Shown: piece after piece, positions 36,501 through 61,648 of the stretch
Position numbering within the stretch: the first letter of the stretch is position 1
How the letters are laid out: each line of letters starts with the position of its first letter
NCBI GenBank assembly: GCA_039720395.1
Contig: CM077831.1
Span: 18,530,982-18,594,981, forward strand
DNA: 64,000 nucleotides
From: Liquidambar formosana
Lineage: Eukaryota > Streptophyta > Magnoliopsida > Saxifragales > Altingiaceae
Direction of reading: 5' to 3'
Notes under the pieces: model-generated
The model's input: the letters and a program-made list of their open reading frames with translations, nothing else
What the model was told of the DNA's origin: nothing
Databases searched by the model: none
Translations under genes and position numbers: made by a program

Positions 36501-36733
36501 AGAACCTTCCCATGTCATAACTTAGCCTCCGAATCCCCGATTTCTTTGGTTTTCAAAAGATTGGTTTTTGCCTTTCCTTTTTTATGGAGTCATTCAAATT
36601 GTTTTCCTAAAACAAACTATTTTTAGGGTTTTCCTTGTTTCCTTTAAAAAATAAGGTGGCGACTCCTTTCCTTTTTCTTTTTCAAACCCACTTTCTTTTC
36701 AATCCCTCGTGGGCCCAATTTCTGGGGTTCACA
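33590..36733 (+). mobile_element. 3.14-kb solo LTR (Tat-like), mosaic copy
   Basis: Begins TGTTACACCCCATTTTTGC and ends GGGGTTCACA, flanked by ATGTG at 33585-33589 and 36734-36738, and interrupting an RNase H reading frame that resumes exactly after it. No coding region. The first ~630 bp and last ~1.5 kb match the reverse-complement copy at 50730-53876; the middle (34222 to about 35190) does not, and begins TGTAGACACCCCATTTTG, the start sequence of the Tat LTR at 46715. Near the right end it carries GGTGGCGACTCC, a phrase seen near the 3' ends of Tat LTRs. TATA box at 34597-34604. Confidence 0.88.
34597..34604 (+). promoter_or_regulatory. TATA box of the mosaic solo LTR
   Basis: TATAAATA about 1.0 kb into the LTR. 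Upstream, 34397-34452 holds dyads such as TGTGTACGCACA. Confidence 0.5.
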
Positions 36734-36738
36734 ATGTG

Positions 36739-40600: not shown

Positions 40601-42560
40601 CTGGCCATGGGGAAGAAACCCTAATAGGGTTATGTGTAATTACTCTTAATTGCACATTAACCCCTATTATTTGTATCAAATACAAATAGGCCCATAAAGA
40701 ACTATTCTTTATTCACTAAAACCTTTTCTCTCATAGACTTTAAAGCCCTTCTTGCATGATCAGTGTGTGACCCATTGGGTTCACATCATTAAGTAGTAGG
40801 AATAGCACAAGGTGTGCACAATGGAACTCTTTCCATTTAGGGTCTAATTGGAACTCCTTCCAATTCCCTAATTGATTATAACTCACTTATATCAATTAGG
40901 GCTTCTACTAACCATGAGTAACACCTAGCATATGGCTCATGGTGTGGTCCTTAATGAGGTGAATAGTCATTTACAAAGAACCCTTCTGTTATAGTTTATA
41001 GGTTACAATTGCATCCTTCCTTCAACACAATGTCTCCAATTGAACTAATAGGACATGGAAGTCTGTCAAGTCCCTAGTTCAATTACTTTATACTCATTCA
41101 TAGATATCAACTCATTGATGAACTCATGAAACTCTTTTCATATTCATCCTACCATGGCCATGGATTTAATGAGTTATATTATGAATGCTATATGAGACAT
41201 TCTCTCTCTTTTTCCTGAGAGTGATGGATCCCTTGTTGATCACTCACATGCCTTCATACACATAGCAGTAGGGCCAATGAACACCTTTGCAAACCCCTGA
41301 ATAGGATTTGCACTTAGTGTTATCAAACTTCTAAAGCTATATGCATAAGACAACTATGGTGTCTCAGGTCTAAGGATTACTTGTACCACTATAACAATGA
41401 GAAACTGATTGACAGGCAGGATAAAACTCCATTCAGTTTATCTCATATCTTTGGTCACATTCAGTGTACCTATTCTCGTAATAGGCACCCACTTGTTGGT
41501 TGTAGTGTCTCTACACAAATAGCTTGAGACTAGCTATCCTCCTATAGAGTCAACCTAACAAGTGCTAGTCCTATGGTTCATTATTGTCCATCATAGTGAA
41601 CCTTCAACTAGGAATGCTTTAGGAGTTTAGTACAGAGATATATCTAGTGTCTCAAAATTACAACTCTTTGTAATTCCATATTCTCAACTCTAACTCCATG
41701 GACATATTATGTAAATATAAATGATGCATATAAACATAATAGAATAAGCCCTTTTATTAAATCAATAATAAATGTGACATACATAAATGAAATCAAATGA
41801 TTGTTCCTAATCCCTAAACAATCATCTCCATGATTGGCTCTAGGGCATAATCCTAACACGATTCCCAACAATCCTTGATCCAATGGTCAATTCAACCATC
41901 AGATTTTCAATTCAAAATCCCTAGAGCGGTCTAGGACCATTTGATTGGGAATCAGAGGGCACAAACCCTCCGATCCCAAAATTGCCCCAAATCGAACCCC
42001 TAACACAACACTAGGTGGTTCGATACCCATCAATCCGTAATCCAATGGCCAATTCCACCCTCGGATCTTTAATTCGATATCCCTAGAGCAGTCTAGGACC
42101 ATTTGATTGGGAATCAGAAGGCACAAACCCTTCGATCCCCAAATTGCCCCAAATCGAACCCCTAACACAACACTAGCGGTCTAGGACCATTTATTTGGGA
42201 ATAAGAGGGCACAAACCCTCCGATCCCCAAATCGCCCCAAATCGAACCCCTAACATAGCACTAGGCAGTTCGATTCCCAACAATCCTTGATCCGATGGTC
42301 AATTCAACCGTCGGATCTTCAATTCAATACCCCTAGAGCATCTAGGACCATTTGATTAAGAATTAGAGGGCACAAACCTTCCAATCCCCAATTTACCCTA
42401 AATCGAACCCCTAACACAACACTAGGTGGTTAGATTCCCAACAATCCTTGATCTGATGGTCAATTCAACCATCGGATCTTCAATTCAATATCCCTAGAGC
42501 GATCTAGGACCATTTGATTGGGAATCAGAGGGAACAAACCCTTCGATTTCAATTTACCCC
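37650..42560. repeat. tandem satellite array, period about 162 bp
   Basis: Roughly twenty degenerate units of about 160-164 bp, counted from recurring GGGAATCAGAGGGCA phrases (for example 38252, 38414, 38738, 38899). Each unit has the blocks CCTCCGATCCCCAA, CGAACCCCTAACACAGCACT, AGGTGGTTCGATTCCCAACA, GATCCGATGGTCAATTCAAC, CGTCGGATCTTCAATTCAAT and AGCGGTCTAGGACCATTTGA. The phrases GATCCGATGG and CCGTCGGATC form an inverted repeat in most units. A foreign segment of ~107 bp interrupts it at 39845-39951 and a solo LTR at 40201-41858. Long open frames on the minus strand here are by-products of the repeat. Confidence 0.92.
40201..41858 (-). mobile_element. 1.66-kb solo LTR (Copia-like) inside the satellite
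   Basis: Begins TGTTGGGAATCG and ends CCTAACA on the plus strand, flanked by CGATT at 40196-40200 and 41859-41863. Read on the minus strand it starts TGTTAGGATTATGCCCTAGA, typical of a common plant Copia LTR class. It contains (GA)n at 40485-40500 and no coding capacity or second LTR, so a solo LTR is the best reading. Confidence 0.85.
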
Positions 42561-43314
42561 AAATCGAACCTATGATGCAACTTTAGGTGGTTCAATTCCA
42601 CAACCATTTCTCATCCAATTGTCAAACCGACCATTGGATCTTCAATTCAACCCTTCAAGATCAATACAAGATCATTGGATCGAAGATTAGGCCTCATTCG
42701 GCTTATGATCAATAAAACCCTAATTGCAAAGCGCTACAAGCATCATATTCGCATCCGGGCCATTCAATCCCACCCTAAAGGGTGCACACTCCACTTTTTG
42801 GTCCCAAACCAAGTTTAGGGACCCAAAGGTTCAATCCCCATTCAAGATCAACGGTCAGAATCCATCCGATCGTCGATCAAACACGATTGGGCGATCGTAC
42901 TGCCCTATAGTAGGGCGGACCACCACCCTAGGCCCACTTCAGCGGCCCCACATCTTCTAGAAGTGCACGCTGCCCAAGAAACACAAGTTCCCATGTGTGC
43001 TGATGAGAAATCATCACAAATGTGGGGTAAGTGTGCCCACGCTAGCTAAACCAACATGGGAAAATCTTGCTTTCGGCTCTACAGCATCCTTCAGCCCCCT
43101 GCAACCGAAATCCAACTGCCTGGATGGGACATGAGCCCACACTGGCCTGGCCAGTGTGGGTAAGGCTGTTTGCCATTTTGTCACTTTTGGACCATCTTGT
43201 CCTCATCAAATGAGGTAATTCCTTCACCAAACAAAGCCTAAATGCCCTCCATGTCCCATGTGACCATAATACCCTCCCAAATAACCGTTTTACCCATAAA
43301 AGTCCATGTTTTCC

Positions 43315-44607: not shown

Positions 44608-45768
44608 TTTTGTACATATACTTGTGCTTTTCAAAACAATAAACATCGCATTCATGAATTCCAAACCTTGCTAAGGTTGATTATGTTTACATATCTTTTG
44701 ACATTTTGATATGTTTACCTTGAAATTTCACGCTATGTTGATATCTTAATTCTATTCCCATGCGAATAAAATTCAACTAAAGCCTCGAGGTAAACTATCA
44801 TGCTATGGATAAAAGTTTACAGCATCAAATGCTTAAAAACTCATCCATAGCATAATCGCTTATCACCATCAAATGAATTTAATCAATTGACCCGCTAAAT
44901 CCTAATAAATCACCTTACCCCGAATCCAGGAACTCCTACGTGTCCCTATGTCACATAGTAAAATCTCAATCCTTAGGAGATTTAATTGATTACATTTTTA
45001 TTCAATTAATTCAAGTGCGCACCAAGATTGGATTTGAATTCCTCCTAATCATCTTTATGCTTCAAAAGCTCAAAGTACTTTTTCAAAAGTCTTTTAGAAT
45101 TGAAGGTGATTCTTTACATCTCAAATCCCCGCTGAAAGGTTAAGTTTTCAAGGAAGGTTTTATTCATACCTGCGTGGATCTTTCTCCCATAAATCATTTT
45201 TGACAACATTACCATCTTTATCAAATAAAGATTTTGATTCGAAAAGAGTTTCTTGTCACCAAACGAATCGTTAACGCGTGCATCATTTCTAATTGACGAG
45301 TTCATTCCAAAAATGACTCGGATAATTCTTTTCATTAAAAAGGCACGTGTTCTCTGTGGGCGCACCGACCTTTCACCACCGCCACACGCTCGCGCGTTCC
45401 TAGCTCACCTGTATTTACCTGCTTTTCTGCTTTCTGATGGTGCTAATCCATTTAAGATTAGCATGCAAATGAGAGTCGCCACCTGGAAAGGTCCAGGACC
45501 AATTTTGTTGACCAGAGATGGGTTCGGAGCTAGGGTACATGTTGGGAAGGTGTTAGGCACCCAATAATGCTTGGTAATAAACCGGCCCTCATTTTTGTAT
45601 TCATTGACCATATTTAATATTTTAATAAAATCCGAATCACCTGTTAATCATACAACAAATAAATGGCACACACGAATGATAGATTAATAGCATAGGATAA
45701 ATAAAAGAAGCATAAACATTTAATAACAAAATATCGAAAACTTAATAAAACAAAAAAAAAAAACTGTC

Positions 45769-45863
45769 GCGAGTACTCGCAGTCTTACCATGCGTATACG
45801 CGGTATTACCATGCGTACGCATAATAAAAATATGCATACGCGTGATATTTCGCGAGTACTCGC
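45769..45863. repeat. palindrome cluster 1 (LTR, downstream of TATA)
   Basis: Contains the perfect 12-bp palindrome GCGAGTACTCGC twice (45769-45780 and 45852-45863), and between them ATGCGTATACGC, ATGCGTACGCAT and ATGCATACGCG. All share a GCG...CGC frame around a short palindromic centre. Confidence 0.85.
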
Positions 45864-46294
45864 GGTTTCACTAAATCATCTTCTTCGTGGATTTGGACTT
45901 TCTGGAGAACATTATTGGCCAAAGATGGACACTGTACACAATAAATCAACTTCTAAACATCCTACATAATTCTACAAATAAATATACACTACGTACCTCT
46001 TAGAAGTAAAGCAAGTTGAAATTAAATCCTTCCCTCAGGTCCACCGTCAACCCGACAGCGTCTCCTCTGTTGTGCAAAACAAGCTTTTCCCAGTCTCACC
46101 GTTCTAACTTCTCTGTTATATTTTCTTCTCTTTTTTCTTAGTTTATTTCTCTCACCCTTTCCATATTTCTCTCACTCTCAGAATAACTTACAGTTACTCA
46201 GAATTTCACCTCTCACTTATTTCCCCGTCTGACCATCTACCCTCTCCCCTCTATCTGTCCTCTTGACCGTCCCCTGAGCTCCTAGGGGCTCTTT

Positions 46295-46303
46295 CTATTT
46301 ATA
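46295..46303 (-). promoter_or_regulatory. TATA box of the Tat 3' LTR
   Basis: TATAAATAG on the minus strand, about 410 bp from the LTR start and about 175 bp downstream of palindrome cluster 2. Confidence 0.55.
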
Positions 46304-46476
46304 GGAAAAAATCCCCAAGTAAGGTCGTCATGCATGACCTCAAATCCCATCTCTTTTTATCTCCACGCCCCTTCCGTTCAGTGATCGGGCCAATTTTAGT
46401 ATAAATAATTCCCTCGACAATGCTTTCGGTCAAAGTAGGAGGCAAGCCATCATTCAAATGAAGAAAATGGGATCTC

Positions 46477-46568
46477 ACGCGTACGCATAATTATTTTATG
46501 GTACGCATGATTTTTCACGCATACGCATGATCTCACCATGCATACGCATATTATAATATGCGTACGCA
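46477..46568. repeat. palindrome cluster 2 (LTR U3)
   Basis: Five to six copies of ACGCGTACGCAT / ATGCATACGCAT / ATATGCGTACGCA spaced by 10-20 bp of A/T-rich DNA, about 150-240 bp inside the LTR start and upstream of its TATA box. Confidence 0.85.
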
Positions 46569-46715
46569 CCACATTCCTCAGCTGTCTAATTTAATAATTT
46601 AAACCCCTATTTGCTTGCTTTGCACGCAGAAAGAGACCCGAGTCGACAGCAAACATTATGGACCTAATCATCAGGAAATCATCATCAAATATAGGGACAA
46701 AATGGGGTGTCTACA

Positions 46716-46730
46716 GTTGCCCCTCTTTCG
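46716..46730 (-). other. Tat polypurine tract
   Basis: On the minus strand CGAAAGAGGGGCAAC directly precedes the LTR start TGTAGACACC, the usual Tat arrangement. Upstream on that strand (46800-47040) a phrase with GCTGCCTACGTACTC and GAGATCAGACC occurs twice, also typical of this leader. Confidence 0.7.
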
Positions 46731-47333
46731 AATTCTCGCCACTTCGTGGGGAGGATTCGAAAGAAAATCTATAGACGAACATTTTGTCCACATGCAAATC
46801 ACATGCACTCATGCAATGTGTCGGGTCGCACTGGACACATCCAGCTGCCTACGTACTCAGTAGAGATCAGACCTTTACGTAGTTCGAAATGATCAAATTG
46901 GGATTCCCGCAGCAAATTCCCAAAATGTAATAAATATCTCATCCTCATGTATGCAATCAAGCAATGCATTGGGTCGTGCCAGATGCATCTAGCTGCCTAC
47001 GTACTCCGCAGAGATCAGACCCTCGCATAGTTCGTGTAATTAAAATCAAATCAATTCTAAGGAAGATCTCTGCAACAAATTCTAAAACATACTAGAACCC
47101 CACAACAATTCTAGTTATAAATATTCCATTAAGGTTTGACTGGTCTCGCAGCATCCTAGTGAACCAATTATAAGCCTGCCTAATCAAGGCAAAGTGAGAC
47201 TCCTGTAGCAAGTCTCAAGCATCATTGTCGAAACTCCGCAGCATTTCTTACCAAAAATCAGGGTCGGGCCCACTCAAGGCAAATCAAGTTTTTTGCAGAC
47301 AAACTCGAGTCAAAATTTTCAATTTCAATCAAA

Positions 47334-47499
47334 ACATGCGTACGCATATTCTCAATATGCGTACGCACAATATACCACGCGTACGCATGTTATGGGGAAT
47401 CAGCATCCCAAAAGTCGCGCTCTTTTTCAAGTTTCAAAACTACCATGCGTACGCATTTTTAAAATATGCGTACACTTGAAATCACCATACGTACGCATG
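47334..47499. repeat. palindrome cluster 3 (3' leader)
   Basis: ATGCGTACGCAT-type palindromes at about 47336, 47356 and 47378, then again at about 47453, 47467 and 47487. They come in groups of three with spacings near 20 bp. The last one has ACGTACGCATG. Confidence 0.85.
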
Positions 47500-47542
47500 G
47501 TCTTAATCTCCTCAGCACTCGCACGTCCTCCGAGGCAGTACT

Positions 47543-47549
47543 TATAAAG
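47543..47549 (+). promoter_or_regulatory. TATA box of the antisense PMD gene
   Basis: TATAAAG in GTACTTATAAAGGGTTTG, about 120 bp before the ATG at 47668 and followed by a pyrimidine-rich leader. It points right, opposite to the retrotransposon, so this gene seems to have its own promoter. Confidence 0.5.
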
Positions 47550-47667
47550 GGTTTGAAACCCTTTTCTCCTTCTCATTTTTTCCAGCCGTCTTTTCACATT
47601 CTCATTCTTTACAAACTCCTTCTTCTTCTGTGACTCTATTTCTTCTTTCATTCACTTTGTTCTTTTC

Positions 47668-50223
47668 ATGGCTCCCAAGAGACAACGACAGCATGGGTCT
47701 TTTCATTCTTAAGGGGACGATTCCATCAACAAAAGGTGGCTGCCTACCATCCATCCTGACGAGGTCATCATCCCTACCTTCCGTTCGGCGGAGCACTTGT
47801 CCCAGCGTTGTCGGGTGGGCGAGGTACGCTCTCTTGTACCTGTTTTCTTTCATAGAACTCATATCAATATATAGATCTGAAATAATGCATGAGATATCTG
47901 TGGAAATTGAATTGGAAGCATCACCAAAACGATTCTTTTATCCTCTAATCTGTAAATGATCTTTAAAAATCAAATCTTTAATTGTTTTGTTGTGCAAAAT
48001 CATCTGTATATTCACCCTATTCAAAATTGAGCATATGGTTTGACGAAACCAAGAGAATAATGTTTGCCCTTATCTGATATTTGTACGTAAGAAGAGAAAA
48101 AGGACTTATTTTTTAACCCATGGCTGACTCTTATAGCATAAAAATCAAACCTTTTATTTACAAACGTGGTAGAAGCGATCTGCACCTAACCACAAGTACG
48201 CACGGTCCCATGGAGCGTAGGCATAAATTATTATGCGTACGCGTGATATTACTGTCCGTACAAGTAGATGCTTCAAGCGTACGCATATTAAATTACGCGT
48301 ACGCATGACCCGCGTGGTGCCAGCCTATTCTCTTATTTTTCATCTTTTTTGAAGCATTATCTCCTATTGCTATTACATACCTGTATTGTCTCTTACCTGT
48401 TTGGCTCCTGCCAGGCGCATCGTGATCTCACTACTCGGGGGAATGCCTCTACTGCCTGGGCTTGGTGGAAGCGTTTGACTGATAACACCAAGGGGTATGT
48501 CATTCAAGCCGGTTTCGGTTCCGTTGTGGATCTCTTGACGTACGATGGGAGCAAGTCCCTCTGTTATTGCATTGGCGAGCGGTGGTGGGATTCTACCCAT
48601 ACCATGCATATCGCTGGTAAGGAGTTGACCATCACTCCTTATGACATCTTCAGATTGACTGGGTTGAGAGTGGTGGGCCCTCCTATCCCATCCTCGTATC
48701 CTTCCGGGGAGGAGGTCGCGCAGTTTCACCTTCGGGTGATAGGGACGAGCTTTACGTCGGGCCATTGTCATTACACCGACGTGGCAGAGGCCTTTTAGTA
48801 TAGACCTCAGGGAACTACTTGGGAGCAACAGATTATGGCGAGGAGTTTTATCCTGTATTTGATTGGTGCTTTTCTTTTCCCAAATTCTACTCAATCTATG
48901 ACCACAGTCTGGCTAGTAGCTTTGGAGGATTTGGGGATTTGCAGTCAGTTTGCTTGGGGTCAGGCTGTCTTGTCCTATCTATATACCTCCATGGATTCCT
49001 TGAGCAGGGACCAGGTTTCCTCCATCACAGGCTGTTAGCGATTATAGGCGATAAATACTTTTTCCATTGCTTTGTTTGTCACTTGCTTGAATATTGTATT
49101 CTGATGCTCGTCAATATTTTTAATACAGCTTTGGGCCCATCGTTATATCAACTTCACTAGGGATGATGGTCGTCTCATATCGGGGTATGACCGGATACGC
49201 GAATTCTTAGACACTACGCCCTTGAACAAGGTATAATCCTTTAAAATTCTCTAACCAAATACCTTGATTTCCTTGCAATTTTTTGACTTTTCCTCTTACA
49301 GATTTGACCTCGCCCATAGACTGGTGTCCCCTTCACTGGCGACCAGGGTATGCATGATGCAGCATTGAGGGCTTCACTAACCTGCTCTATACTCGATTCT
49401 CCTATTTCCCGAGCCATTTACTTGCCAGAGAGAGTCATGTGGCAGCTCTCCGATGAGGTCCTTGCATGGTAGCAGGTGCCTACGCTTCCTCCCTCCTTCA
49501 TGATCTATCCATACAATATCAGTGATGAGGACTTGGACGTCTGGCAGGCAGGTATACCTTGTGATGCTCGTCTCCTTCCCGAGGAAGATTACGCCACGTT
49601 TGCGGCTGAATTTCTCATGCCCCGACTCCTCGGGCCCCAGGTATATATTTCTTTACATTTCATTGCCTCAAATCACTGTACAACTTGGACTCTTACTGAT
49701 CGTATTTCCCTTTAAGCTGTTCCTCCTGCTGACGAGGGTGAGGATGAAAGGATTAATCCAGTGTTGCCTGGCTGGCATGTGACCGAATGGTCGCCCGCTG
49801 GATATTTTATTGAGAATGAGATCCCACGCCGGGACAACGTCCTGGGCTATCCGATGGCTCCTGGTACTCGCAAAGTGAGTACCTATTCTCTTCTTTTTTC
49901 TTTTTTTTGTTTCCTGCATCATGAACTTATTTGCAAAATATGCGCATATGCATGCATGACTATTCGTATTTCCCCCATTGCAGCTCAACATGACTGAGTC
50001 TGTAGACATGATCCAGCTAGTGGGAAGCCTGAAGGCCATGGTTATTGATTATTCTCTGAGATTGCACGGAGGTCCAATGGCACCTGGTGGCCCACCTGGA
50101 GGCCCACCTGGAGGTAGTAATGATGAGGCTTCGAGCGCTCAGCAGGGTGGGAGCTCATCTCATGCCCCTAGTGTTAGGAGCAGGAGCACTCGAGGACGGG
50201 GACGCCGTGGAGGGCCCTTTTAG
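47668..50223 (+). pseudogene. plant mobile domain (PMD)-like antisense gene, interrupted
   Basis: Start MAPKRQRQ at 47668. Exons read from GT/AG sites: 47668-47823, 48415 to about 49040, 49129-49230, 49302-49640, 49717-49874 and 49984-50223. Exon 2 has the PMD signature: AGFGSVVDLLTYDG, ERWWDSTHTMHI, GKELTITPYDIFRLTGL. The end is Gly/Pro- and Arg-rich (GRGRRGGPF). PMD (PF10536) is shared by plant MAIN/MAIL proteins and by genes carried in retroelements and transposons; its role in elements is not settled. Breaks: TAA at 47710-47712, TAG at 48796-48798, further stops around 49037 and 49305. It lies antisense to the surrounding Tat element with its own TATA box; palindrome cluster 4 is in the first intron and cluster 5 just downstream. 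Confidence 0.8.
48231..48307. repeat. palindrome cluster 4 (intron of PMD gene)
   Basis: ATGCGTACGCGT at about 48233, AAGCGTACGCAT at about 48276 and ACGCGTACGCAT at about 48296, within the first intron of the antisense gene. A weaker CAAGTACGCACGG copy lies at 48193. Confidence 0.8.
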
Positions 50224-50530
50224 CTTAACTTTCTTAAAATACTTATTTGGGGTGTAACTTAAACAATTTCTTTTCTTTTGTTTATTTCTGATCCTACACA
50301 TTTGGTCTGCACATAGTGCCCATACTTTCTATCCATATGACTAATATTCCTGCCTTTTGTCTACATCTTTCGGTGATGGCATCTTTCTTTTGTCTTTCTT
50401 TTTATTTTATTTATTGTACCCGCATCATTAAACGAGAAATAAGCCCAACAAAGTTTATCAAACAAATGGTAATGAGTGGATTGAGGATCAAACATATCAC
50501 AAAGCTTGAAAAAACAGATTTGGTATCACG

Positions 50531-50645
50531 GTGCGTACGCATAATCAAACTATGCGTACGCATGAAATTGGGTGCATACGCATGAAAAAGGGTGCGTACG
50601 CATATTACAGATATGCGTACGCATGAAAAACCATGCGTACGCATG
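50531..50645. repeat. palindrome cluster 5 (downstream of PMD gene)
   Basis: Six units in 115 bp: GTGCGTACGCAT, ATGCGTACGCAT, GTGCATACGCAT, GTGCGTACGCAT, ATGCGTACGCAT and ATGCGTACGCAT, spaced 10-12 bp apart. The densest and most perfect of the five clusters. It lies about 85 bp before the GGCAC target site of the solo LTR. Confidence 0.88.
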
Positions 50646-50729: not shown

Positions 50730-53700
50730 TGTGAACCCTAAAAAAGTGGCCCACAAGGATTTAAAAGTCGCCAGTTTGTGAACCCAGGAAAGCGGGCCCA
50801 CGAATGGGTTTGAAAAAGGAAAAGGGAGTCGCCACCTTATTTTTTAAAGGAAACAAGGAAAACCCTAAAAAACAGTTTTGTTTTAGGAAAACAAAAGATT
50901 GACTCCATGTTTAAAAATGGTAAGGCAAAAGATCTTTTGGAAACCAGAGAAATCGGGGATTCGGAGGCTGAGTTACGATATGGGAAGGTTTTAGGCAAAG
51001 CCTATAGGCACCCATATCGCCCTAAACGGTCTCTTAATTTAATTGGGCTAAATCAAAGTCTTAATCACACAAAAATCAACAATTATCATCACAAGACAGC
51101 ATGCATATCATTCATTCATTCATCCATATAATCAAGTAAATCAAAGAAAAACATAAAAAAGAAAGAAGGGAGAGAAAGCCTAGGATACTTAGTATCCTAG
51201 GGCGGACTTGAACCTCACGAAGAGCGCCTACGTACCATGTATGGAAATACATGGATCAAAGTCCACGTAGTTCGAAAGGGAATAGGGTTATAACCTAATA
51301 GAGGCCTATGGTAAACCCTAAGTTTCCTTTCAAGTAAAACATGGTAAGTTTCCAAAAAATAAATGATTCTTCAAAAGATCTTTAGTAAATACGGAATTTG
51401 ATAAAAATGGAAACTTTGATTTAAAAGGTATTTTTATGAAAGGATACTATAGGAATTACCATATTCCCCTATTAGGAAATAACCCTAGGAGGGAGAAAGG
51501 GAAAGTTTCAAGAAAAGGAAAGAAGGGTGAATTGGGGCACCCTCATACCCTACTTACCTTTAAGCAAAAGCAACCTGTCAAAATAACCGCGCTATTGCAT
51601 AGGGTAATTATCTTATTTGCAAGATTTCATCTTGCAATAGCCAAAATAACCACCCCACATTGGTGGGGTAGTTGCACCTGTTGTACCTGTCAAAGCACCT
51701 GCAATTTGCATGCAAAATACACCAAAAATACCAACCAACCAAGCTAGGTTCCAATCAAGCAATTATCATGCTTAAACATAAGCTAACACATGCTCAAAAC
51801 ATCATATTAAGGACAAATAACAGATATGGACAGAATTGAAATAGAGTTTAAAATCAACCACAAGTCATGCGAACAACATGAATCATAAGCTAACTAAAAC
51901 CCTAATTCAGTCCTATATGCAATGACATGCAAATAACCCTAAAAATCAACCATATGAATGCTCCAAATATCATATTTAAGGCAATAAACAAATCTGGACA
52001 GAATAGAAACAAGGTCTATATTCATTCACTAAATATGCAAACAACATAAGCAGTGAATAATTACAAACCCTAGTTTAATCCTAGAACCATGACATGCATA
52101 AAAACCCTAAAATCCACTACATGAATGCTAAAAATACCATAGTTATCTAATATGCAATCCACATATAGCAACTATGAAGAAAAAACAGAGAAAATCCCTA
52201 AGCTATCATGCTATATGCAACTAAACCAACACAAAGATGATAAAAACCCTAGAATCACACTAGTGCATACAATCCCATGAAATAACCCTAAATCATGCAA
52301 AACCAAATATGAACAGCATTCTAACCATGCATATTAATCAATAGAATGATCCACACATGATAAAGACATAGACTTTCACATGAAATAAAGCTATTCTAAG
52401 CATAAACTCAATTTCAGCACTAAGGAAACCCTAGAATTGTAACTATGCATGAGATCACATTAAACAGCCCTCTAGCATGTAAAAATGACCATGAACAAGA
52501 TTATAATCATGCATATTAACTCACAAAAGCATCAACACATGATAAAAACATAAGCTTGAATATGAAATAATGCTATCCTATGCAGAAAACCCTAATTTGA
52601 ATGAAAGAGAGAAAGGGGGAGAGGTATACCTATGGTGGCTGCTGTAGAAAGTCCTCCTCCTCTTATGCACTGCTGGGAATTCCTTCCTTTAAGCCTTCAA
52701 GCCCAACTCCAGCCCTCCTTCAAGCTTTCTCTCTCACTCTCTCACTCAAAGTTTAGGTTAAACTACCCTAAGGATGACTGCCATAGCCTCCAATGTGCCT
52801 CCCACTTTAGAAATTGCCTCCCACTTCAGAAATTGCCTCTAGGTGGCCCCTAATGCTGAAGTATAAAGGGGTATTTATAAGGATTAAGTGGAATCAATCA
52901 ATGGTTGGGATTAAAACCCTAAATATTAATCCAAGGGTCCTTAGAGACTTCCTTGGTGCTCAAGTAGGTCAAATAGGGCTGAAAATAAGATGGAATGGCG
53001 GCTGGAAGCAAAAAATCCGTCAAAAATAGGAAGGAATCCCGCTTCAGCATGATTTTAGGAAGGTAGCTCGGCTGACCACCCAGGGCTAGGCGGCTAACCA
53101 CCTGGCCTTGGGCGGCTGACCACCTGGGCTGGGCAGTTAGCCGCCAAGCCCCAGGTGGTCACCCGAGCGCGCCATCAGCAATTGCCTTATTTGAGCCCTT
53201 TCAGCTTCCAAATGTGTTTCGGGGGTCAAATAGAGTCTGATTTTGACGAAACGAAAGCCAAAACGACCGTGCTTCGATGAGGAATGTAATTTAATACATT
53301 TTAGGGCAAAAATCCCTAGCCATGGCTGCATGGTTGGGTTTCACAAAGGCGGCTAACCACTATGCACCACCGTTGCTAAGCTTAGGTATGCACACAGGGT
53401 CGCACCGAATGCTTTCCAATTCAAAATTCAACCTTCCAAAACATCTTTAGGAATGAAATTAAGACTAATTAAAGTCAAATGAGTGGGAATGGAGTGAAAA
53501 TCATGAGCCGATTTGAGCCAACCCGAAGTGGGTCTCTTAACCAAATTGAACCTTATTGAGCCATTTTAATCCCGAACCATTGATTCATCAAATTGAACCC
53601 ATAAATACCTCAAATGCATCCTCATGAACTCTAATTGACAATTTGGAGATCATTTCAAGGTTAAATGAAAATTTTGTAACCTAAAAGACGATTATGCCCC

Positions 53701-53876
53701 TCAAGTCACAAAAGCTCTTATTATCCCTCAAGATCAACTCCAAATTGAACCAAAATTCATATCTAATGTCTTTGTGATTCTAGAAAACTAATGCAAGTAA
53801 CTAGACTCGAAAACAAAACAAAAAAATGCATGGAATGACAAACCCTAGTAAGGTGGTGCAAAAATGGGGTGTGACA
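50730..53876 (-). mobile_element. 3.15-kb solo LTR (same family as 33590-36733)
   Basis: On the plus strand begins TGTGAACCC and ends GGGGTGTGACA, flanked by GGCAC at 50725-50729 and 53877-53881, a perfect 5-bp target duplication. Its minus strand matches the ends of the solo LTR at 33590-36733, but its middle has a different U3 with a tandem GGCGGCTGACCACCTGGGC-type repeat (53065-53160) and a TATA box at 52872-52879. A short duplication of the terminal TGTGAACCC phrase occurs at 50730 and 50776. No coding region. Confidence 0.88.
52872..52879 (-). promoter_or_regulatory. TATA box of the second 3.15-kb solo LTR
   Basis: TATAAATA on the minus strand in CCTTATAAATACCCC, about 1.0 kb into the LTR, as in the sister copy. 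Confidence 0.5.
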
Positions 53877-53916: not shown

Positions 53917-53925
53917 TATAAATAG
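53917..53925 (+). promoter_or_regulatory. TATA box of the antisense DUF7745 gene
   Basis: TATAAATAG in CTTCTATAAATAGGTAATC, 49 bp before the ATG at 53966. A strong plant TATA match, antisense to the retrotransposon. Confidence 0.55.
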
Positions 53926-53965
53926 GTAATCCCTCCTATTTACTCTCCCAACCTTTTAGGATATC

Positions 53966-55009
53966 ATGGCAAGCCCTTTCTCTCTCCTGAATATCAAAAG
54001 GTGGCTTCTGTCTGTCAACCGCCAAACAGTCCAACTATTTGAGTCAACTCATCTTTCTTCTTTAATCCACTACTGCTAAGCAAAGATCAATAAAGATTTC
54101 TTCTCAACGGTTATAAAATATTGGGACCCTCTTCGTCATGTGTTCCGTTTTAACAACATAGAGATTTGCCCCACCATAGAAGAATTTAGTGCAATTCTCA
54201 ATTACCCCGTTTCCCATGATCCTTTGTTTCCTTCTCAAGCTATCCTTCTTTCTTCTGACCTTGCCTTGGCTCTAAACATTTCTGTAGAGTAGGCCAGATC
54301 ATGGTGCATCGATTCCACCATAAATCTTGAACCTCTTGTGCAACGTTTTTCTACGGTTCTTCCTTTACTAAACAATTATGCGTTCAAGGCTCTTTGTCTA
54401 TGTTTATTAGCGGGGTATCTTCTCATCAGTGACCTCTACTCAGTCGATTTGGCTCTCCTTCATGTGGTTCAACACATTTCTTCCCATAATCCGTGCATGA
54501 TAATTCTTGCAGAAACCCTCAATGGCCTTGATGATGCAGTACAAATAGAGACTTCCTTACTACATGGCAGCCCTCTTCTATTACAGGTAATCCATCACTC
54601 TTTTATTATTAGTCTATCCAATCAACACTTTTTTACCTTTCCCATCCATCAGATATGGCTATATGAACGTCTCCAATTGGTTGAAGCGCCAACAATATAT
54701 CCTTATCGACCAGAACATTATTGCTATTGCAAGCTGGCTAAACCCTTTCCCAATTATGAGAAACTGCAAGAATTCTTGGGCTCTTTGTCTTGTCACCACA
54801 TCCTTTGGCACTGCCCATGGTGGCACATCGATCAAATGACCACCGAGTTGGTATTCCCTGGGAGTGTAATGTTGGTTGGTCTGCACGATATCTCATACTA
54901 TCCTGCGTCTCGTATTGCACGCCAATTCGGGAAGAATCAATATGCTCTTATCAAAGATCATGCTGGATACACCTGCCCTATCTTCGCCCGAGCCATTAAA
55001 CGAGTTTAA
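53966..55009 (+). pseudogene. DUF7745-like antisense gene, interrupted
   Basis: Start MASPFSLLNIKRWLLSV at 53966. The frame carries the features I associate with plant DUF7745 proteins: TIEEFSAILNYPV, then ALCLCLLAGYLLISD, ILAETLNGLDDAV, GSPLLLQ before an intron (54587-54652), IWLYERLQLVEAP, then a WHCPWW block and PASRIARQFGKNQ. In-frame stops lie at 54077 (TAA) and 54290 (TAG); the intron is 66 bp and read-through would stay open. After the stop at 55007 another frame continues with YYDWLARDLENTKKVEPKSP to 55194, suggesting a late frameshift. No catalytic function is known for the family. It lies between integrase and the 3' part of the Tat element, antisense, with its own TATA box. Confidence 0.7.
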
Positions 55010-55194
55010 TCATTATGGAAAAATAGGTCACGGATGGAAACCTTCGGGCCCCGACATTAGTAAGTCCACCATCATCTTATTATGACTGGCTGGCTAGAGA
55101 TTTAGAAAATACCAAGAAAGTGGAACCAAAATCTCCCCATAAGAGGAAAGAATCAACTGGAGAAGAAGGGCCTTCAAAGAGGATAAGAAAGTGA

Positions 55195-55541
55195 AAATGA
55201 AACGTATGTCGATACCTCTTTCTTCAGATTTTACTGTACATTTCGTCATTTCCTTCTTACATTTTTAATTTAAATAAAAAGGATCAAGATGTACTAGTTA
55301 TCCATTCTCAAGAATTCGCTTTTTAATTGACCCATGTATTTAACAAGAATCTTGATAATTACGAATTGGTTTCACCATTGTCTCCATAGATTATAACATC
55401 TCATTTTTCTTCCATAATATGGACTGCACCCATTCAGGGCTACCTACGTATTCCCTTTAAACTTTGTGATGATTTACTTCTTTTTTTTTTTTTTCTTCTT
55501 TTTCCTGGGAAATCAGGTCCTTGTAGTTCATATGCTTCTTT
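55195..55541. other. convergent 3' region between DUF7745 gene and pol
   Basis: T-rich DNA where the plus-strand antisense gene and the minus-strand pol end towards each other. It contains a phrase CTACCTACGTATTCC near 55441, a form also found in the Tat 3' leader, and a T-run near 55481-55494. No gene. Confidence 0.5.
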
Positions 55542-58500
55542 TCATACATAGTATTTCCGTAATCGATCCATGTTGACCGGTTGCATGAGTTCGTTACCAT
55601 CTCCATCAATCAGCTTAACTGCCCCTCTTATCATGATTGTCTTTACAATGTACAGACCCATCCAACTGGGCTTGAATTTGCCCCTTGGATCAAATATTTG
55701 CGCTTGCATTTGTTTAAGCGCCAAATCTCCTTCTTTCAGTCCTCTGGGACTCACCTTTTTATTGAAAGCTCTAGCGATTCTCTTCTGATAACCTTGTACA
55801 TGATACAAAGCCTGCAACCTCTTCTCGTCAATCAATGCTAATTGCTCATATCTGCTCCTCATCCATTCTGTTTCTGGCATCTGATTCTCGACCATGACCC
55901 TTAATGAACCAACCTCCATTTCTACTGGTAGTATAGCTTCCATCCCGTATACCAAAGAGTATGGTGTTGCACCAGTTGATGTTCTTACAGACGTACGATA
56001 TCCCCAGAGTGCAAATGGTAGTTTCTCCGCCCAGTCTTTGTACGTGACTGCGCTTTTCTCCAAGATGGACTTAATGTTTTTGTTGGCAGCTTCTACAGCT
56101 CCATTCGTCTGAGGCCTATACGAGGAAGACTTGTGATGTTTTATCTGATACTCTTCAAGTAGCATTTTGACCTCATTTTGGAAATGTAACCCATTATCTG
56201 TGATTACTTCATGCGGTACTCCATATCGACATATAATGTTTTGTTCAATGAACCGAGCTGTATGTGACGACTTCAGCTCCGTATAAGCAGCTGCTTCTAC
56301 CCATTTGGTGAAATAGTCAATGGCAACCAGAATATACTTGTGCCTACCCATAGCCTTGGGTTTAATTTCTCCAATTATGTCGATGCCCCAGGTGGAGAAT
56401 GCCCAAGGTGAGGTCATTTGATGCAATTCCACTGGTGGCATGTAATTCAAGTTAGCATACACCTGGCATTGATGACACTTCTTTACGTACTCCGCGCAGT
56501 CTCCTATCATGGTCGTCCAGAAATATCCCATTCTGACTATCTTCTTGGCTAACATCTTACCACTCATGTGAGGCCCACAGACACCTTCATGCACCTCTCC
56601 CATGAGAACCCGGGCCTTTTCTTCATCCACACATAGTAAATGAATCCCATCGTACGATCTTTTATACAAATCTCCTCCACATAAGATGTACTATGCGGCC
56701 AGTAGGCGTAATGCCTTTCGATCCTTCCTGTCAGCACTTTCTGGATATTCCCCTTTCTCAACCACATTCTTGATATCGTAATACCAAGGTCTTCTATCAT
56801 TAGGTTCTGCATCTATTATCATCACAGCCGCTTCATATGCAGGTCAAGACTTCTGGTGTATGCTTAATGGCTTTATTGGGGCTCCTTCCGGCACATTAAT
56901 CATGGATGCTAGAGTTGCTAGAGCATCAGCAAACTGATTGTGTGACCTAGGGAGTGGAATATAAGTAACTCTGTCAAATTTCTGAGTTAATTTCTCCAAA
57001 TACCCCTGGTATGGTTTGAGATGTTCTTCTCTGGTCTTCCAGATTTTTTGAACTTGGGATATTACCAAGGCAGAATCACCATATACCTCCACTTCTTGTA
57101 CCCCTAAAATCAATAGAGCTTCCATTCCAACAATACATGCTTCATATTCTGCTGTGTTATTCGAATTCTCAAAATTTAACTTTACGGACATTGGGATGTG
57201 TGAACCATCTGGAGCAATTAATAATACCCCAATTCCATCCCCGTATTGGTTCGAGGCTCTGTCAAAGTACATCTTCCACATTTTTCCTTCTTCAATCGTC
57301 AAAACATCTTCATCTGGGAAATCGTCATTGAGATTTTGCCCTGTGACTGGATGTTCCGCACAATGTTCTGCTATTACTCGTCCTTTTATGCTCTTTCGAG
57401 TGACATATTTCAATTCATATCCTGCCAAGATTATCACCCATCTTGACATTCTGCCATTTAGCACAGCCTTCTCAAATAAGTATTTTAGTGGATCCATTCG
57501 AGCTACCACCTAAACTTCATAATTCAGCAGAATGAGTCTCAACTTCTTTGCAGCCCATACAAGAGCGAAACATGATTTCTCAATTGGAGAGTAGCGTGTC
57601 TCATAACCATGCAACTTCTTACTGAGGTAGTATATAGCATATTCACCTCTTTGCCCATCATCCTGAGCTAACATACATCCCAATGCTTCTTTGAACACTG
57701 ACAAATAAAGCAATAAGGGTCTCCCCAACCTAGGAGGCTGCAGAATCGGTGGCGTCAAAAGATACTCCCTCACTGCATCGAAAGCTCACTGGCATTAATC
57801 ATTCCACTCTTTGCTTTCTCCCTTCTTTAGCAACTTAAAGATTGGTTCACAAGTGGTGGTCATCTTGGCTATGAAACGACTGATATACTGCAATCTCCCC
57901 AAGAATCCTCTAACTTCTTTCTCAGTTTTCGAAGGTGCCATTTCAAGAATAGCTTTGATTTTTGTTGGATCTACTTCAATACCCCTGTTACTCACCACGT
58001 AACCCAGTAATTTTCCAGTTGTTACCCCAAAAGTACACTTCTGCGGGTTCAGCCTCAATTTATATTTCCTGATCCTATCAAAGAATTTCTTCAGATTGAA
58101 CCAATGTTCTTCTCTAGTTTCTGATTTCACGATCATATCGTCAACATACACTTCCACCTCTTTATGCATCATGTCATGTAAAAAGGCTGTAGCCATCCTC
58201 TGGTAAGTTGCTCCTGCATTCTTTAAACCAAAAGGCATGACTGTGTAACCATAAATTCCCCATTTTGTCACAAAAGTTGTCTTACTTATATCTTCTAGAG
58301 CCATCTTCATCTGATTGTAGCCTGAGAACCCATCCATAAATGACATCATTGCACTTCCAGCTGTATTATCCACCAGGACATCAATGTGAGGTAACGGGAA
58401 ATCATCTTTTGGGCACGCCTTGTTGAGGTCTCTGTAATCTATGCACATTCGTATCTTTCCATCCTTTTTTAGAAATGGTACAATGTTGGCTACCCAGTCA

Positions 58501-58907
58501 ATTCGCGTCATTGTCTGAATGAACCCCACTTTAAGGAGCTTAGTGACTTCATCCTTAATCTTTATCATCAGTTCAGACTTCATGCGACGAAACTTCTGCT
58601 TTACTGGCTTAGCGTCTTCTTTTATAGGTATGTGATGCTGTGCTATCTCAGGGTCAATGCCAGACATGTCTTGATAAGACCAAGCGAACACATCATTATA
58701 TTCATGCAACAAGGCTATCAACTCACCCCGCTCTTCTTCAGATAAAGTGGAACCAATTCGTATTTCTTTATGATTCTCATTAATACCTAAGTCTATTAAA
58801 ATAGTTTCTTCTTGAATAGGTATTACTTTCCTTTCTTGATCTTTTTTAATTAATTCTTCAATGTAATCAATATCCTGTGATAATGCAGTTTCATCATAAA
58901 AAGACAC
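55542..58907 (-). pseudogene. Tat pol: reverse transcriptase, RNase H, second RNase H, integrase
   Basis: One frame from 58907 to 55542. Reverse transcriptase has RMCIDYRDLNKACPKDDFPL, SFMDGFSGYNQM (first Asp) and VYVDDMIVKS (catalytic YVDD, about 58135-58160). A worn first RNase H follows (57773-57510), then an archaeal-type RNase H (57320-56900) with FDRAS, TAEYEA, GDSALV and FADALA, the four acidic positions intact; a second RNase H is a mark of the Tat branch. Integrase (56650-55700) keeps its His/Cys finger (HMSG to KCHQCQ) and the D, D and E motifs WGIDIIG, ITDNG and GAVEAANK. In-frame stops at 57795, 57786, 57510, 56844 and about 56690 prevent full translation. Order and length are otherwise normal. 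Confidence 0.92.
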
Positions 58908-61648
58908 ATCGAAATACGCAGAATTAAAGATGTTATTTTCGACAAAGGGGTGGTCACATTTTCGGGTTTGAGCTTATTCTCAATTATAATGCCAGTTACA
59001 ACTTCAATCCCTTTTTTCCATTCCCATGCACTGGTACTCCCATCAGCAGAAGTGATCAGATTGGCGGAGTTGTTAGCAGCATCTTCATCAGTCAAGGCAT
59101 TAATCCCCTCAGTCTGCTTGGGTTTCAGTAGTACTTGCATCATTTCCCTTTCCAGAAGATCGTTCCAGTCTTCAATCTTTGGCTCCTTCTTCGCATCAAT
59201 CATCTTTTCTTTCTCGATCTTCAGTACTGCATTGAAGAAGATTTCCAATCCTGGCACCATTTTTCCAGTTACACGATCAAACCAAGGTTCTGGGAATCCA
59301 CAGTAAGGAAAGTTATCTCCTTCTTTCACAAAGTTCCCATTGAGTGTGCCCTTGTTGACTGGTAAGCTGTTATTTTCATCATTGTATCCCACACCAAGAC
59401 GATTATTCTGTGGTTTGAAATTAGGGAACTCAGCCACTCCTTGATTATATTTTCCTAGACCCATCCCAGGCATGAAGTTCATCTTCCTCATGAAGTGAGC
59501 AGCAATATGACCAATACCTTCCCCAAAATCAGGCGAAATCATTTCTATCCCATACGGTCCTTCTTTTTTAATAACCTGGATAATCTCAAATCCCTTCCAA
59601 GCCACTTCAACAGCTTCTCTTTTTACTTCATAGACCGGAGCAGTGATTTCACCATCCCCGTGTATTATCAGAATTCTTTCTTTCCAAGGGAGCTTAATCT
59701 TCTGATGAATGATAGAGGGTACTACCCCTAGTGGGTGTAACCATGTTCTTCCCAACAGGAGGTTGAAATTAGTATCAATGTCCATCACGCAGAACTCTAC
59801 TTCTGACTCTACCGGTCCCACAATACATGCAGCTTTAAAGGTCCCAAGAATCTTGCGGCATCCATTGTCATAAGCTCGTACAGTCAAGGCAGATGGCGTA
59901 AGTTGCTCTTCAGTGAGTCCTAACTTGGAGGCAGTGCGCATCGGGCACACATTTAAGGCAGACCCGTTGTCTACTAGGACCACCAGTATTTTCTTACCTT
60001 TACATTCCACAGTAATGTATAAAGGCTTGGCATGTGCTACTCCTTCAGCTGGCAAATCTTCTGTTGAGAATGTTAGCACGGCCTCACCCTCTGGGTTTGT
60101 ACCCATCAGTGCTACCACTTGTTCTAATGAGATTTCCATTGGTACTTCTTTTCTGGCAAGGGCTTCTAGAACAGCTTGCCGATGCTTTTTGGATGCAACC
60201 AAGAGTCCCCATATAGAGATATTTGCCTGAGTTTTCTTTAATTGTTTTAGCACACGATCCTCGTCATCTTCTTCATCTGCCTTCTTATTGTTTCTTTCCA
60301 GCTCAGTTTCTTTTCCTGGATGATCTCCTTCTAGGTAAGATGGCTTGAAATGCCTCCCAAATCGAGTTAAATGTAGAATTCTGTCCGCATCATCCATCGA
60401 ATCCCAGAAACTCCCTTTTTTGATGTTGACTTCGCCGCAGTCCTTCCAAGCATCAACATCCAATACCATTACTTCCCTTATAAGATTGGAGTGATCTCGT
60501 ATCTCAGTGCCTTGTTCTATAAGCCCAACATTCCTCTGATATTCTGGCAAAGGGTTCTGATGGATGTTTGGTTCTGCTCCTTCTCCTGGCTTGGGAATCT
60601 TCTTATTATCAATCAGGTCCTGGATCTCGTGCCTCAGCCTGGCACAATTATTAGTCTTATGCCCTGCCATTTGATGAAAATGACAAAATTCATTCAAATT
60701 ATATCGTGGTGGGAGAAGATTAGGCAGAGGATGCGGTGCTAAGGTTTGCAGATGCCCCCTTCTCATCAAATTGGCGAAAGCTTTAGACAAAGACATTCCC
60801 AGATCATCAAATTCTCTTCTAGCCCCTTGATTCAGAGCAACTACTGTATTTGAGTTTGGAGGCGGATTGGTAACCCTATTCCCTCCTTGACTGTTAGAAT
60901 TTCCTCCAGACCCGTAAGTTTTCTTTATCGCCTTCCCTTCATATCTATCCACTTGACCACTGTTTATGGCTTGTTCAATACGGGTACCACAATCATACAA
61001 CTGCTCAAAATTCATAACAGGAGATGCTAACAAACGGTTGAAATACACAGGCTGTAAATTTTTTATGATCAAATTGACTTGATCTCTTTCTGTGGGCCTA
61101 TTCACCATCTTGATTGCCTTTTTTCTCCACCTGATTAAGAAATCAGGAAATGTCTCCCCAGACTTTTGTATTGTCATCTCAAGATCCCGCAAGGTTGTAT
61201 CTAACATGGTATTGTAATTATACTGGTCTTTGAAAAGCTTCACTAACGTTTCCCAAGACGAAATCTGTGCATCATCCAGACCATAGTACCATTTAGAAGC
61301 TTCTCCAACAAGTGATAATGGAAAGGCAGCTACCGCCTGGGCTTCGTTCATCCCTTTCATTCGTACAATACTCATATATTGGCGAATGTGCTGCTTAGGA
61401 TCTCCACTCCCATCAAACTTTTCCGTGTCAACAATTTTGAACTTGGATGGTAAATTTGCTAAAGGATCAGAGGACGACCCTCCAACAAACATGAAATCAT
61501 CCATGCCTTGAGACTTTCGCATTGCTGCATACATCTTTTCCACCTTCTCTTTCATCTCCTCTTGTCCTGCCGTATACTTTTCCCATTTCTCCCATTCTTT
61601 TTTCTTCTTTAGATAATCAGCATAATCATCTTCCTCCCAAGGATTTTT
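58850..61648 (-). CDS. Tat gag and aspartic protease polyprotein (open, 5' part lost)
   Basis: Open from 61648 to 58850 (first ATG at 61555, 901 codons from there); the frame upstream meets a TAG at 61649-61651, before the charged DDYADYLKKKKEWEKWEK stretch, so the true start was probably further up. Capsid region: FKIVDTEKFDGSGDPKQHI, then EASKWYYGL and the FPDFLIRWRKKA block. Zinc-finger-like FCHFHQMAGHKTNNC near residue 287. Protease with LVDNGSALNVCP near residue 525 and LLGRTWLHPLGVV near residue 600. A G-patch-like stretch (MNFMPGMGLGKYNQG) near residue 690. It overlaps the start of pol (58907) by 58 bp in another frame; the sequence continues in the pol frame as NNIFNSAYFDVSFYDE, so a frame change is needed to make pol. 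Confidence 0.88.
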   Translation of the reverse strand, partial: KNPWEEDDYADYLKKKKEWEKWEKYTAGQEEMKEKVEKMYAAMRKSQGMDDFMFVGGSSSDPLANLPSKFKIVDTEKFDGSGDPKQHIRQYMSIVRMKGMNEAQAVAAFPLSLVGEASKWYYGLDDAQISSWETLVKLFKDQYNYNTMLDTTLRDLEMTIQKSGETFPDFLIRWRKKAIKMVNRPTERDQVNLIIKNLQPVYFNRLLASPVMNFEQLYDCGTRIEQAINSGQVDRYEGKAIKKTYGSGGNSNSQGGNRVTNPPPNSNTVVALNQGARREFDDLGMSLSKAFANLMRRGHLQTLAPHPLPNLLPPRYNLNEFCHFHQMAGHKTNNCARLRHEIQDLIDNKKIPKPGEGAEPNIHQNPLPEYQRNVGLIEQGTEIRDHSNLIREVMVLDVDAWKDCGEVNIKKGSFWDSMDDADRILHLTRFGRHFKPSYLEGDHPGKETELERNNKKADEEDDEDRVLKQLKKTQANISIWGLLVASKKHRQAVLEALARKEVPMEISLEQVVALMGTNPEGEAVLTFSTEDLPAEGVAHAKPLYITVECKGKKILVVLVDNGSALNVCPMRTASKLGLTEEQLTPSALTVRAYDNGCRKILGTFKAACIVGPVESEVEFCVMDIDTNFNLLLGRTWLHPLGVVPSIIHQKIKLPWKERILIIHGDGEITAPVYEVKREAVEVAWKGFEIIQVIKKEGPYGIEMISPDFGEGIGHIAAHFMRKMNFMPGMGLGKYNQGVAEFPNFKPQNNRLGVGYNDENNSLPVNKGTLNGNFVKEGDNFPYCGFPEPWFDRVTGKMVPGLEIFFNAVLKIEKEKMIDAKKEPKIEDWNDLLEREMMQVLLKPKQTEGINALTDEDAANNSANLITSADGSTSAWEWKKGIEVVTGIIIENKLKPENVTTPLSKITSLILRISMCLFMMKLHYHRILITLKN

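Follow-up and report, generated by a model that had tools for sequence, protein, structure and literature searches.

What do clusters of short palindromes do when they recur at several separate places within one retrotransposon, and what might read them? The question is raised by a 64,000-nucleotide stretch of the Liquidambar formosana genome (C12:18530982-18594981; "the window" below), in which an element that is, by its domains, probably a Tat/Ogre-type Ty3 retrotransposon carries five clusters built from GCGTACGC and related palindromes. A first-pass annotation, made from the letters of the window, had described these clusters and proposed that they form an array for a dimeric DNA-binding protein, either a host SPL-type factor or a protein of the element itself. 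We followed this up in the window and across the 718 Mb of the genome searched. What emerges is a real, conserved and phased array system that looks like a set of operators, and like a variant of a kind known from Sireviruses.

Five palindrome arrays with a two-turn step

The five clusters exist where the first-pass annotation had placed them. Fifteen exact copies of GCGTACGC lie between positions 45769 and 50645, with 0 in the remaining 59,123 bases of the window; 300 dinucleotide shuffles of the region contain 0.007 on average and 1 at most. Twelve-mers with no more than two mismatches from ATGCGTACGCAT number 21 in the region, against 0.11 (maximum 2) after shuffling; outside the region the window has 2 more. 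The looser form GCG-N0-6-CGC, which the annotation had expected to be in excess, occurs 19 times, against a shuffled 2.6 (maximum 9), and 7 times elsewhere in the window. Altogether, 28 unit centres can be placed, several of them degenerate and set by register. The arrays, to which we give letters, are as follows.

45769..45863, unstranded: array A, 5 units, steps 22, 20, 21, 20 bp; in the long terminal repeat (LTR)
46477..46569, unstranded: array B, 5 units, steps 20, 20, 21, 20 bp; in the LTR
47336..47498, unstranded: array C, 6 units, steps 21, 20, (68), 21, 21 bp; PMD promoter
48192..48306, unstranded: array D, 6 units, steps 21, 20, 21, 21, 20 bp; PMD intron 1
50531..50644, unstranded: array E, 6 units, steps 21, 20, 20, 21, 20 bp; DUF7745 promoter

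The strongest feature of the arrays is their step of 20-21 bp, which is two helical turns. Neighbouring centres are 20, 21 or (once) 22 bp apart in 22 of 23 pairs, the lone exception in the window's copy being the 68-bp gap inside array C. The annotation had given a unit spacing of 10-20 bp; the gaps measure 8-10 bp, with centres 20-22 bp apart. When exact cores only are used, the short distances are again 20-21 bp and roughly multiples thereof. Because a period fitted from such cores comes to 21.1 for the window's family and to 9.85 when both families are pooled, only the step is claimed here, and not an exact helical repeat. The same step is found beyond the window. In 40 LTR loci (one of them the window's own), scored from 687 candidate places genome-wide, 361 of 431 near-exact neighbours no more than 110 bp apart are separated by 20 or 21 bp, with 118 distinct spacers between them; this count includes the window's copy and a relative nested in locus L028, and the loci are related copies, so that the counts are not independent. 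Other steps in these loci include 17 (11 cases), 31 (10), 41-42 (14) and 69-70 bp (16).

Most units contain GTAC, the core that the annotation had given for SBP/SPL proteins (often as CGTAC); two units of array A hold GTAC without CGTAC. These are the GCGAGTACTCGC units that stand at either end of that array, with GCGTACGC types in the middle. The spacers, described earlier as unrelated to one another, are not fully so: their mean identity in the window's copy is 0.38/0.36 against 0.31 for shuffled letters, and there is a weak register of three units (61 bp; 0.52 in phase, 0.37 out of phase), reached by 0 of 300 shuffles. TRF likewise reports a 61-bp period in array E. An Rfam scan of positions 33000-64000 at gathering scores gave no match.

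Position of the arrays relative to promoters

To place the arrays, the element and its genes have to be laid out.

55545..61648, minus strand: gag-pol of the element, from domain matches of open reading frames
55545-56690, minus strand: integrase frame
56847-57509, minus strand: RNase H frame
57798-58973, minus strand: reverse transcriptase frame
58853-61648, minus strand: gag frame
45357..46715, minus strand: 3' LTR of the element, beginning clearly at 46715 with TGTAGACACCCC; other end guessed by eye
46716-46735, minus strand: polypurine tract beside the 3' LTR start, read from the sequence
46298..46305, minus strand: TATA-like box of the LTR promoter, read from the sequence and located as a word
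47669..50224, plus strand: antisense PMD gene (plant mobile domain, PF10536), exons and introns, limits by eye
47543, plus strand: TATA-like box of the PMD gene, TATAAAG
53917..55197, plus strand: second antisense gene, DUF7745 (PF24924), degraded; TATA at 53917, ATG near 53967, end approximate
50730..53876, minus strand: solo LTR from a different family, inserted so as to part array E from the DUF7745 gene; 5-bp target duplication GGCAC

With minus-strand domains in the order gag, reverse transcriptase, RNase H (RVT_3) and integrase, the host of the arrays is, by its coding frames, probably a Tat/Ogre-type Ty3 retrotransposon on the minus strand, a type in which an additional RNase H-type domain is expected between reverse transcriptase and integrase. 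No 5' LTR was seen in the 64-kb window. The interval between pol and the 3' LTR holds two plus-strand, hence antisense, genes, PMD and then DUF7745. The PMD exon frame at 48292-48795 matches the domain with E 9.2e-08 and 32.1 bits, below the 34.9-bit Pfam cut-off; protein P0001, which carries PF10536, is 90% identical to it over 55% of its length. The second gene takes its name from another copy, in which exon 1 is open and the DUF7745 match has E 7.4e-12; a sub-threshold PMD match was also obtained in another copy. Eight copies have the DUF7745 gene so placed, and exon 1 is open in all 6 that were cut out by script. Its dN/dS is 0.36-0.54 in all 8 comparisons between subfamilies, and 0.2-2.2 in 7 comparisons within subfamilies, where changes are few.

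On this minus-strand element, array B occupies the stretch from about 170 to 265 bp upstream of the TATA box in the LTR. Some 45 bp part the end of array C from the PMD TATA-like box, and, with the solo LTR left out of the count, some 120 bp part the end of array E from the DUF7745 TATA. That solo LTR is missing from the same place in 8 other copies. In eight copies (L011, L015, L027, L035, L036, L038, L042, L043) array E directly precedes the DUF7745 TATA; in L036, for example, the array ends at 5401 and the TATA lies at 5524. Since E adjoins the DUF7745 gene in these copies, the cluster that had been placed "just after" the PMD gene is the promoter array of the next gene. Likewise, the "leader" cluster C belongs to the PMD promoter; the coordinates of the annotation stand, and these two contexts change. 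Three promoters were found in the portion of the element within the window, those of the LTR, the PMD gene and the DUF7745 gene, and all three are marked by arrays. Arrays A and D sit downstream of promoters, A at a distance of about 435-530 bp from the LTR TATA.

Conservation of the palindromes

Other copies of the window's family (family 1) carry the clusters, as the proposal of the annotation required: every one of the 40 LTR loci has near-exact units at A and at B. For arrays A and B, 31 of the 40 LTRs could be aligned, the others (L019, L025, L026, L028, L030, L031, L045, L046, L047) being dropped as expanded or interrupted, and nine copies were aligned for arrays C to E. Sites were classed as CG, other GC or AT, and pairwise identity was compared with a non-coding background. 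With base context adjusted for in this way, the palindromes stand above background by 0.062 in A-B (p 0.0025) and by 0.055 in C-E, a value matched by 0 of 2000 random layouts. The spacers lie below it, by 0.014 and 0.026 respectively, which upholds the claim that the units are conserved more than what separates them. The PMD exons exceed the same background by 0.043.

Sites outside CG share in this conservation. In the LTRs, palindrome identity is 0.943 against 0.903 at AT sites and 0.958 against 0.829 at other GC sites. Among the minority alleles of the LTR palindromes, 136 of 213 are C-to-T or G-to-A changes at CG sites, which, by the kind of change, is the mark of methylated decay.

Divergent relatives and a changed palindrome

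A second Tat element (family 2) is nested inside PMD intron 1 of copy L028. The middle of its LTR is barely above chance in its likeness to family 1 (score 189 against a shuffled 168 +/- 13), and it has TGCGTACGCA arrays in the LTR on either side of that middle, before its PMD gene and in the first PMD intron. Twenty of its short steps measure 19-21 bp. Because its spacers resemble those of family 1 at chance level (0.277 against a null of 0.286), the match between the two families does not depend on shared descent of the spacers, and a constraint on the word and its spacing can, as far as the alignments go, account for it. Among themselves, the spacers of the nested element show a weak likeness (0.315 against 0.273 +/- 0.008), which would fit a partial origin of its arrays, too, by duplication. 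A tandem repeat (GAGTAATCCCTGACGAGGGCATGGGCCTTGACGAAGGTCCG) also lies between the polypurine tract and the PMD promoter of this relative (L028:4870-5320, query orientation). Units of the TGCGTACGCA type occur further in L051, whose PMD is 63% identical, and in L052 (PMD 51%), where they are decayed.

A large third family, with PMD about 44-48% identical, has the palindrome TGCACGTACGTGCA instead; in the survey of its PMD genes, 150 of 3183 candidates were scored. In L049 and L053, a triplet of TGCACGTACGTGCA units with 21-bp steps precedes the TATA (two of the three units decayed), and units recur in intron 1. Words with no more than two mismatches from TGCGTACGCA number 0 in L049, 2 in L050 and 1 in L053. 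The L044 LTR has TGCACGTACGTGCA arrays at 5284/5305/5326, before a TATA at 5472, and at 6051/6072/6093, after it. A family-3 PMD gene (C2:659406), whose promoter and intron are L053, lies 15 kb downstream of this LTR in the expected orientation. On C1, family-3 arrays at 2338861 and 2338882 stand beside a PMD match at 2339187, and further arrays lie at 2334168, 2341517, 2342200, 2352206 and 2353000. Genome-wide, spaced pairs of TGCACGTACGTGCA gave 724 matches on the forward and 731 on the reverse strand, most places being counted on both, and the reversed pattern gave 0. With steps of 17-23 bp allowed, all but one of about 100 listed pair places (all on C1) have a step of 21 bp. A different tandem repeat was seen upstream of the PMD promoter in L049 and L050.

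The palindrome is thus shared across positions in families 1, 2 and 3, and it differs in family 3. A palindrome that is common to the positions of an element and specific to family 3 is what a trans-acting reader predicts, L051 being an exception. The core CGTACG is found in the main palindromes (TGCGTACGCA, TGCACGTACGTGCA) of all the PMD-bearing families examined, and TGCGTACGCA may, from its distribution, be ancestral and family 3 the changed one. Chains of other palindromic words were sought in 40 fetched pieces with nothing convincing found, by a filter that excluded GTAC units and so missed the L044 arrays; viral contigs scanned by the palindrome pattern and by the PMD exon yielded nothing.

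What might read the arrays?

We propose that the arrays are operators for a dimeric protein that co-regulates the promoters of the element, and that this protein is somewhat more likely to be encoded by the element than by the host. To this proposal we would give a probability of a little under one half (about 0.47). A dimeric protein would bind each dyad through the core CGTACG, extended to TGCGTACGCA in the window's family. Because the centres are two turns apart, neighbouring dimers would lie on one face of the helix, so that cooperative binding would be possible. One factor could then set sense and antisense transcription jointly; since arrays mark its three found promoters, the element looks like a small regulon. 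The factor may be the PMD or the DUF7745 protein, acting as a family-specific activator or anti-silencer, by analogy with VANC for the VANDAL transposons. The antisense genes are the nearest candidates because their own promoters carry arrays. Protein binding, cooperativity, the identity of the binder and the sign of its effect are all inferred. The more general claim of the first-pass annotation, that the array serves a dimeric DNA-binding protein, appears well supported, though indirectly, by the dyads, their conservation, the two-turn step, the nested relative and family 3.

It is tempting to look to the host instead. SBP/SPL proteins prefer a GTAC core, and sites for these or another dimeric host factor might have been recruited to give tissue- or stress-specific expression of the LTR and the antisense genes. 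The sharing of CGTACG by TGCGTACGCA and TGCACGTACGTGCA, a core kept across very divergent families of one host, fits this, and stress-factor sites are the main PLACE matches for Sirevirus palindromes in the part of that study that treats them (PMC2829016). Against it, the conserved dyad of 10-14 bp is longer than the SBP core, two conserved units of array A (GCGAGTACTCGC) lack CGTAC, and at equivalent positions families 1 and 3 have different palindrome arms. Longer dyads, units without CGTAC and family-specific arms would favour a dedicated reader, and we regard host sites as a real but minority possibility. Palindromes might also act in RNA, since every unit is able to pair with every other and, from their position, all five arrays would be within the genomic transcript; hairpins could feed or distract small-RNA pathways, or aid packaging. 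Hairpin and small interfering RNA roles are known for the LTR palindromes of maize Sireviruses. A fixed spacing of two DNA turns is not expected of RNA hairpins, however, and the placement of arrays before three TATA boxes and the predominance of CG decay among the LTR palindrome changes count against such a role as well, which makes it unlikely.

Two further explanations would dispense with recognition of the sequence. One is a neutral minisatellite of about 20.5 bp (with a higher-order unit of 61 bp), copied around the element and visible because the copies are young. The 61-bp period in array E, the weak three-unit spacer register and the weakly alike spacers of the nested L028 element speak for it. 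Yet, after correction for base context, the palindromes outconserve both the spacers and the background; the word persists in the nested element although the spacers around it do not resemble family 1; and in family 3 another palindrome takes the corresponding positions with unchanged spacing. As a full account, a neutral tandem repeat is largely ruled out, mainly by these three observations, and we consider the explanation very improbable; tandem duplication may still have built the arrays. In the other, the arrays would be islands dense in CG, and a methyl-CG reader or a demethylase would recognize their methylation and not their sequence. Each main unit has two CG sites, the minority alleles are mostly CG to TG or CA, and Sirevirus motifs are reported to border CpG islands (PMC2829016). 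The conservation of non-CG positions of the palindromes leaves this account, in our estimation, scarcely any credit.

Several observations weigh against operators read by a protein of the element. Both antisense genes of the window's copy contain stop codons. No DNA-binding domain has been demonstrated in PMD or DUF7745, and an AlphaFold model of a DUF7745/PMD protein (alignment of 14) reached a pLDDT of 48.5 and was not used. The CGTACG shared by the main palindromes could be explained by one host factor, and gene conversion among units could also keep palindromes alike. A phase-free test of the spacer register within clusters was not significant (p = 0.12). The nested PMD exon 1 of L028 resembles family 3 (25/48) more than it does the family-1 copy L036 (18/45); because its element keeps TGCGTACGCA, the palindrome does not simply track PMD divergence. 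In L051, known from one copy, the LTR has TGCGTACGCA while the PMD intron (2020-2071) has TGCATGTGCA/TGCGTGTGCA at 21-bp steps, so that one palindrome at all positions is not universal; possibly, on the evidence of its two words, L051 is a change of palindrome caught half way. In family 3, L050 has a single unit before its TATA, with several in intron 1, and the L044 LTR and the family-3 PMD gene are assigned to one element from their positions.

Other repeats in the window

Several other repeats were seen in the window. At 62570-62710, an unrelated palindrome array has TTCAATCGATTGAA types centred at 62640.5, 62661.5, 62682.5 and 62703.5, each exactly 21 bp from the next. They precede, by about 50 bp, the TATA-like box of another LTR, whose start seems to lie near 62048. 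The core of these units, CAATCGATTG, is that of the Sirevirus Tnd-1 motif ACAATCGATTGT, as given in the motif section of PMC2829016. A AAGACGTCTT palindrome array lies at 20650-20890, some of its steps being exactly 20 bp, and two GTAC palindromes about 21 bp apart (34399-34431) shortly precede a TATA-like box in a solo LTR (about 33589-36735; target duplication ATGTG, read by eye). The solo LTR between array E and the DUF7745 gene contains three copies of the 22-bp repeat CGGCTGACCACCTGGGCTGGG (53069-53134). An element of the form CTGCCTACGTACT..GATCAGACC..CGTAGTTCG is repeated at 46803-46886 and 46951-47034, and both solo LTRs have a similar stretch (I3 arms 36167-36288 and 51194-51315); it may be a conserved hairpin of these elements, and has no Rfam match. 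A 162-bp unit is tandemly repeated within 37816-42706, with about 12.5 copies to 39845 and further copies thereafter. CACTA-type transposase domains (Transposase_21, DUF4218, DUF4216) and, separately, an inverted CCGACGGTTT/AAACCGTCGG repeat cluster occur at 960-4680 and 17671-17909.

Relation to known systems and significance

In CACTA transposons, subterminal repeats are bound by TNPA-type proteins, and their arrays of short motifs are needed for excision. The analogy that the first-pass annotation drew with these arrays is less apt than it seemed, because CACTA arrays are subterminal, whereas those of the window lie at promoters and in an intron of a retrotransposon, not at its termini.

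The nearest anatomical precedent is found in the repeated motifs of Sireviruses, and the nearest functional one in the VANC motifs. Sirevirus motifs are described as family-specific palindromes that cluster ahead of the TATA in the LTR and ahead of ENV, mostly with a CGG-CCG core (in all but Tnd-1); the classic Ty1/copia elements included in that comparison lack them (Bousios et al. 2010, PMC2829016). The window's element likewise has palindromes in the LTR upstream of the TATA (B) and upstream of extra genes (C, E). Sireviruses, in contrast, are Ty1/copia elements with a sense ENV, whereas this is a Ty3 element of Tat/Ogre type with two antisense genes and an array in an intron; its core is CGTACG, the CGG-CCG core being absent, and its arrays have 20-21 bp steps, of which the Sirevirus motif section makes no mention (PMC2829016). 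In VANDAL transposons, according to Hosaka et al. (2017, PMC5735166), the same element that encodes the binder has a dense, family-specific motif in its introns and other non-coding stretches, the motif arrays grow by tandem repeats, and the motif varies between families. The window's element resembles these in having a family-specific array in non-coding regions, with a motif that differs between families, L051 being mixed. VANDALs are DNA transposons with a motif of one orientation, YAGTATTAY, rather than a retrotransposon with palindromes, and binding and loss of methylation are demonstrated for VANC in that account (PMC5735166). The antisense genes match PMD and DUF7745 and, by these domain matches, would not be VANC homologues.

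Among Ogre elements, 57% are reported to carry a PMD extra open reading frame (ORF; Neumann et al. 2019, PMC6317226), and for Retand, antisense genes between pol and the 3' LTR are described, with regulatory roles proposed (PMC11963269). The window's PMD lies beside pol as in the Ogre elements, and in reverse orientation. Palindromic arrays common to the LTR and the antisense promoters are not reported for the Ogre PMD or the Retand ORFs in the passages of these papers that treat them (PMC6317226, PMC11963269). No such arrays in Ogre/Tat elements came up in a literature search by title and abstract start that covered few subscription papers, and papers that contain the literal palindrome words looked unrelated, by title, among the matches listed. 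The PMD proteins MAIN and MAIL1 are needed for expression of genes with the promoter motif DOWN, and in the portions of the reports that deal with it, the contact of their complex with chromatin is stated as unknown (PMC7156037, PMC9899485). As quoted there for MORC1, DOWN (CATGCAGTTT) is unrelated in sequence to the window's palindromes.

A wider generalization is tempting: PMD (or DUF7745) proteins of Ogre/Tat elements may be dimeric regulators that bind DNA in a sequence-specific way, with private palindromic operators, phased at two turns, at the element's own promoters; operators and proteins would have drifted jointly into families, a retrotransposon counterpart of VANC. We advance this tentatively, and would sooner doubt it than rely on it. 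If a protein of the element does bind the arrays, plant LTR retrotransposons would encode their own trans-regulators, as VANDAL transposons do and certain retroviruses too. A function would then be at hand for the antisense PMD genes, which have long gone unexplained and to which none is assigned in the relevant passages of PMC6317226 and PMC11963269. There would also be a hint of how the domesticated MAIN and MAIL1 came to the control of promoters, and of an ancestral activity for the PMD silencing factors of plants.

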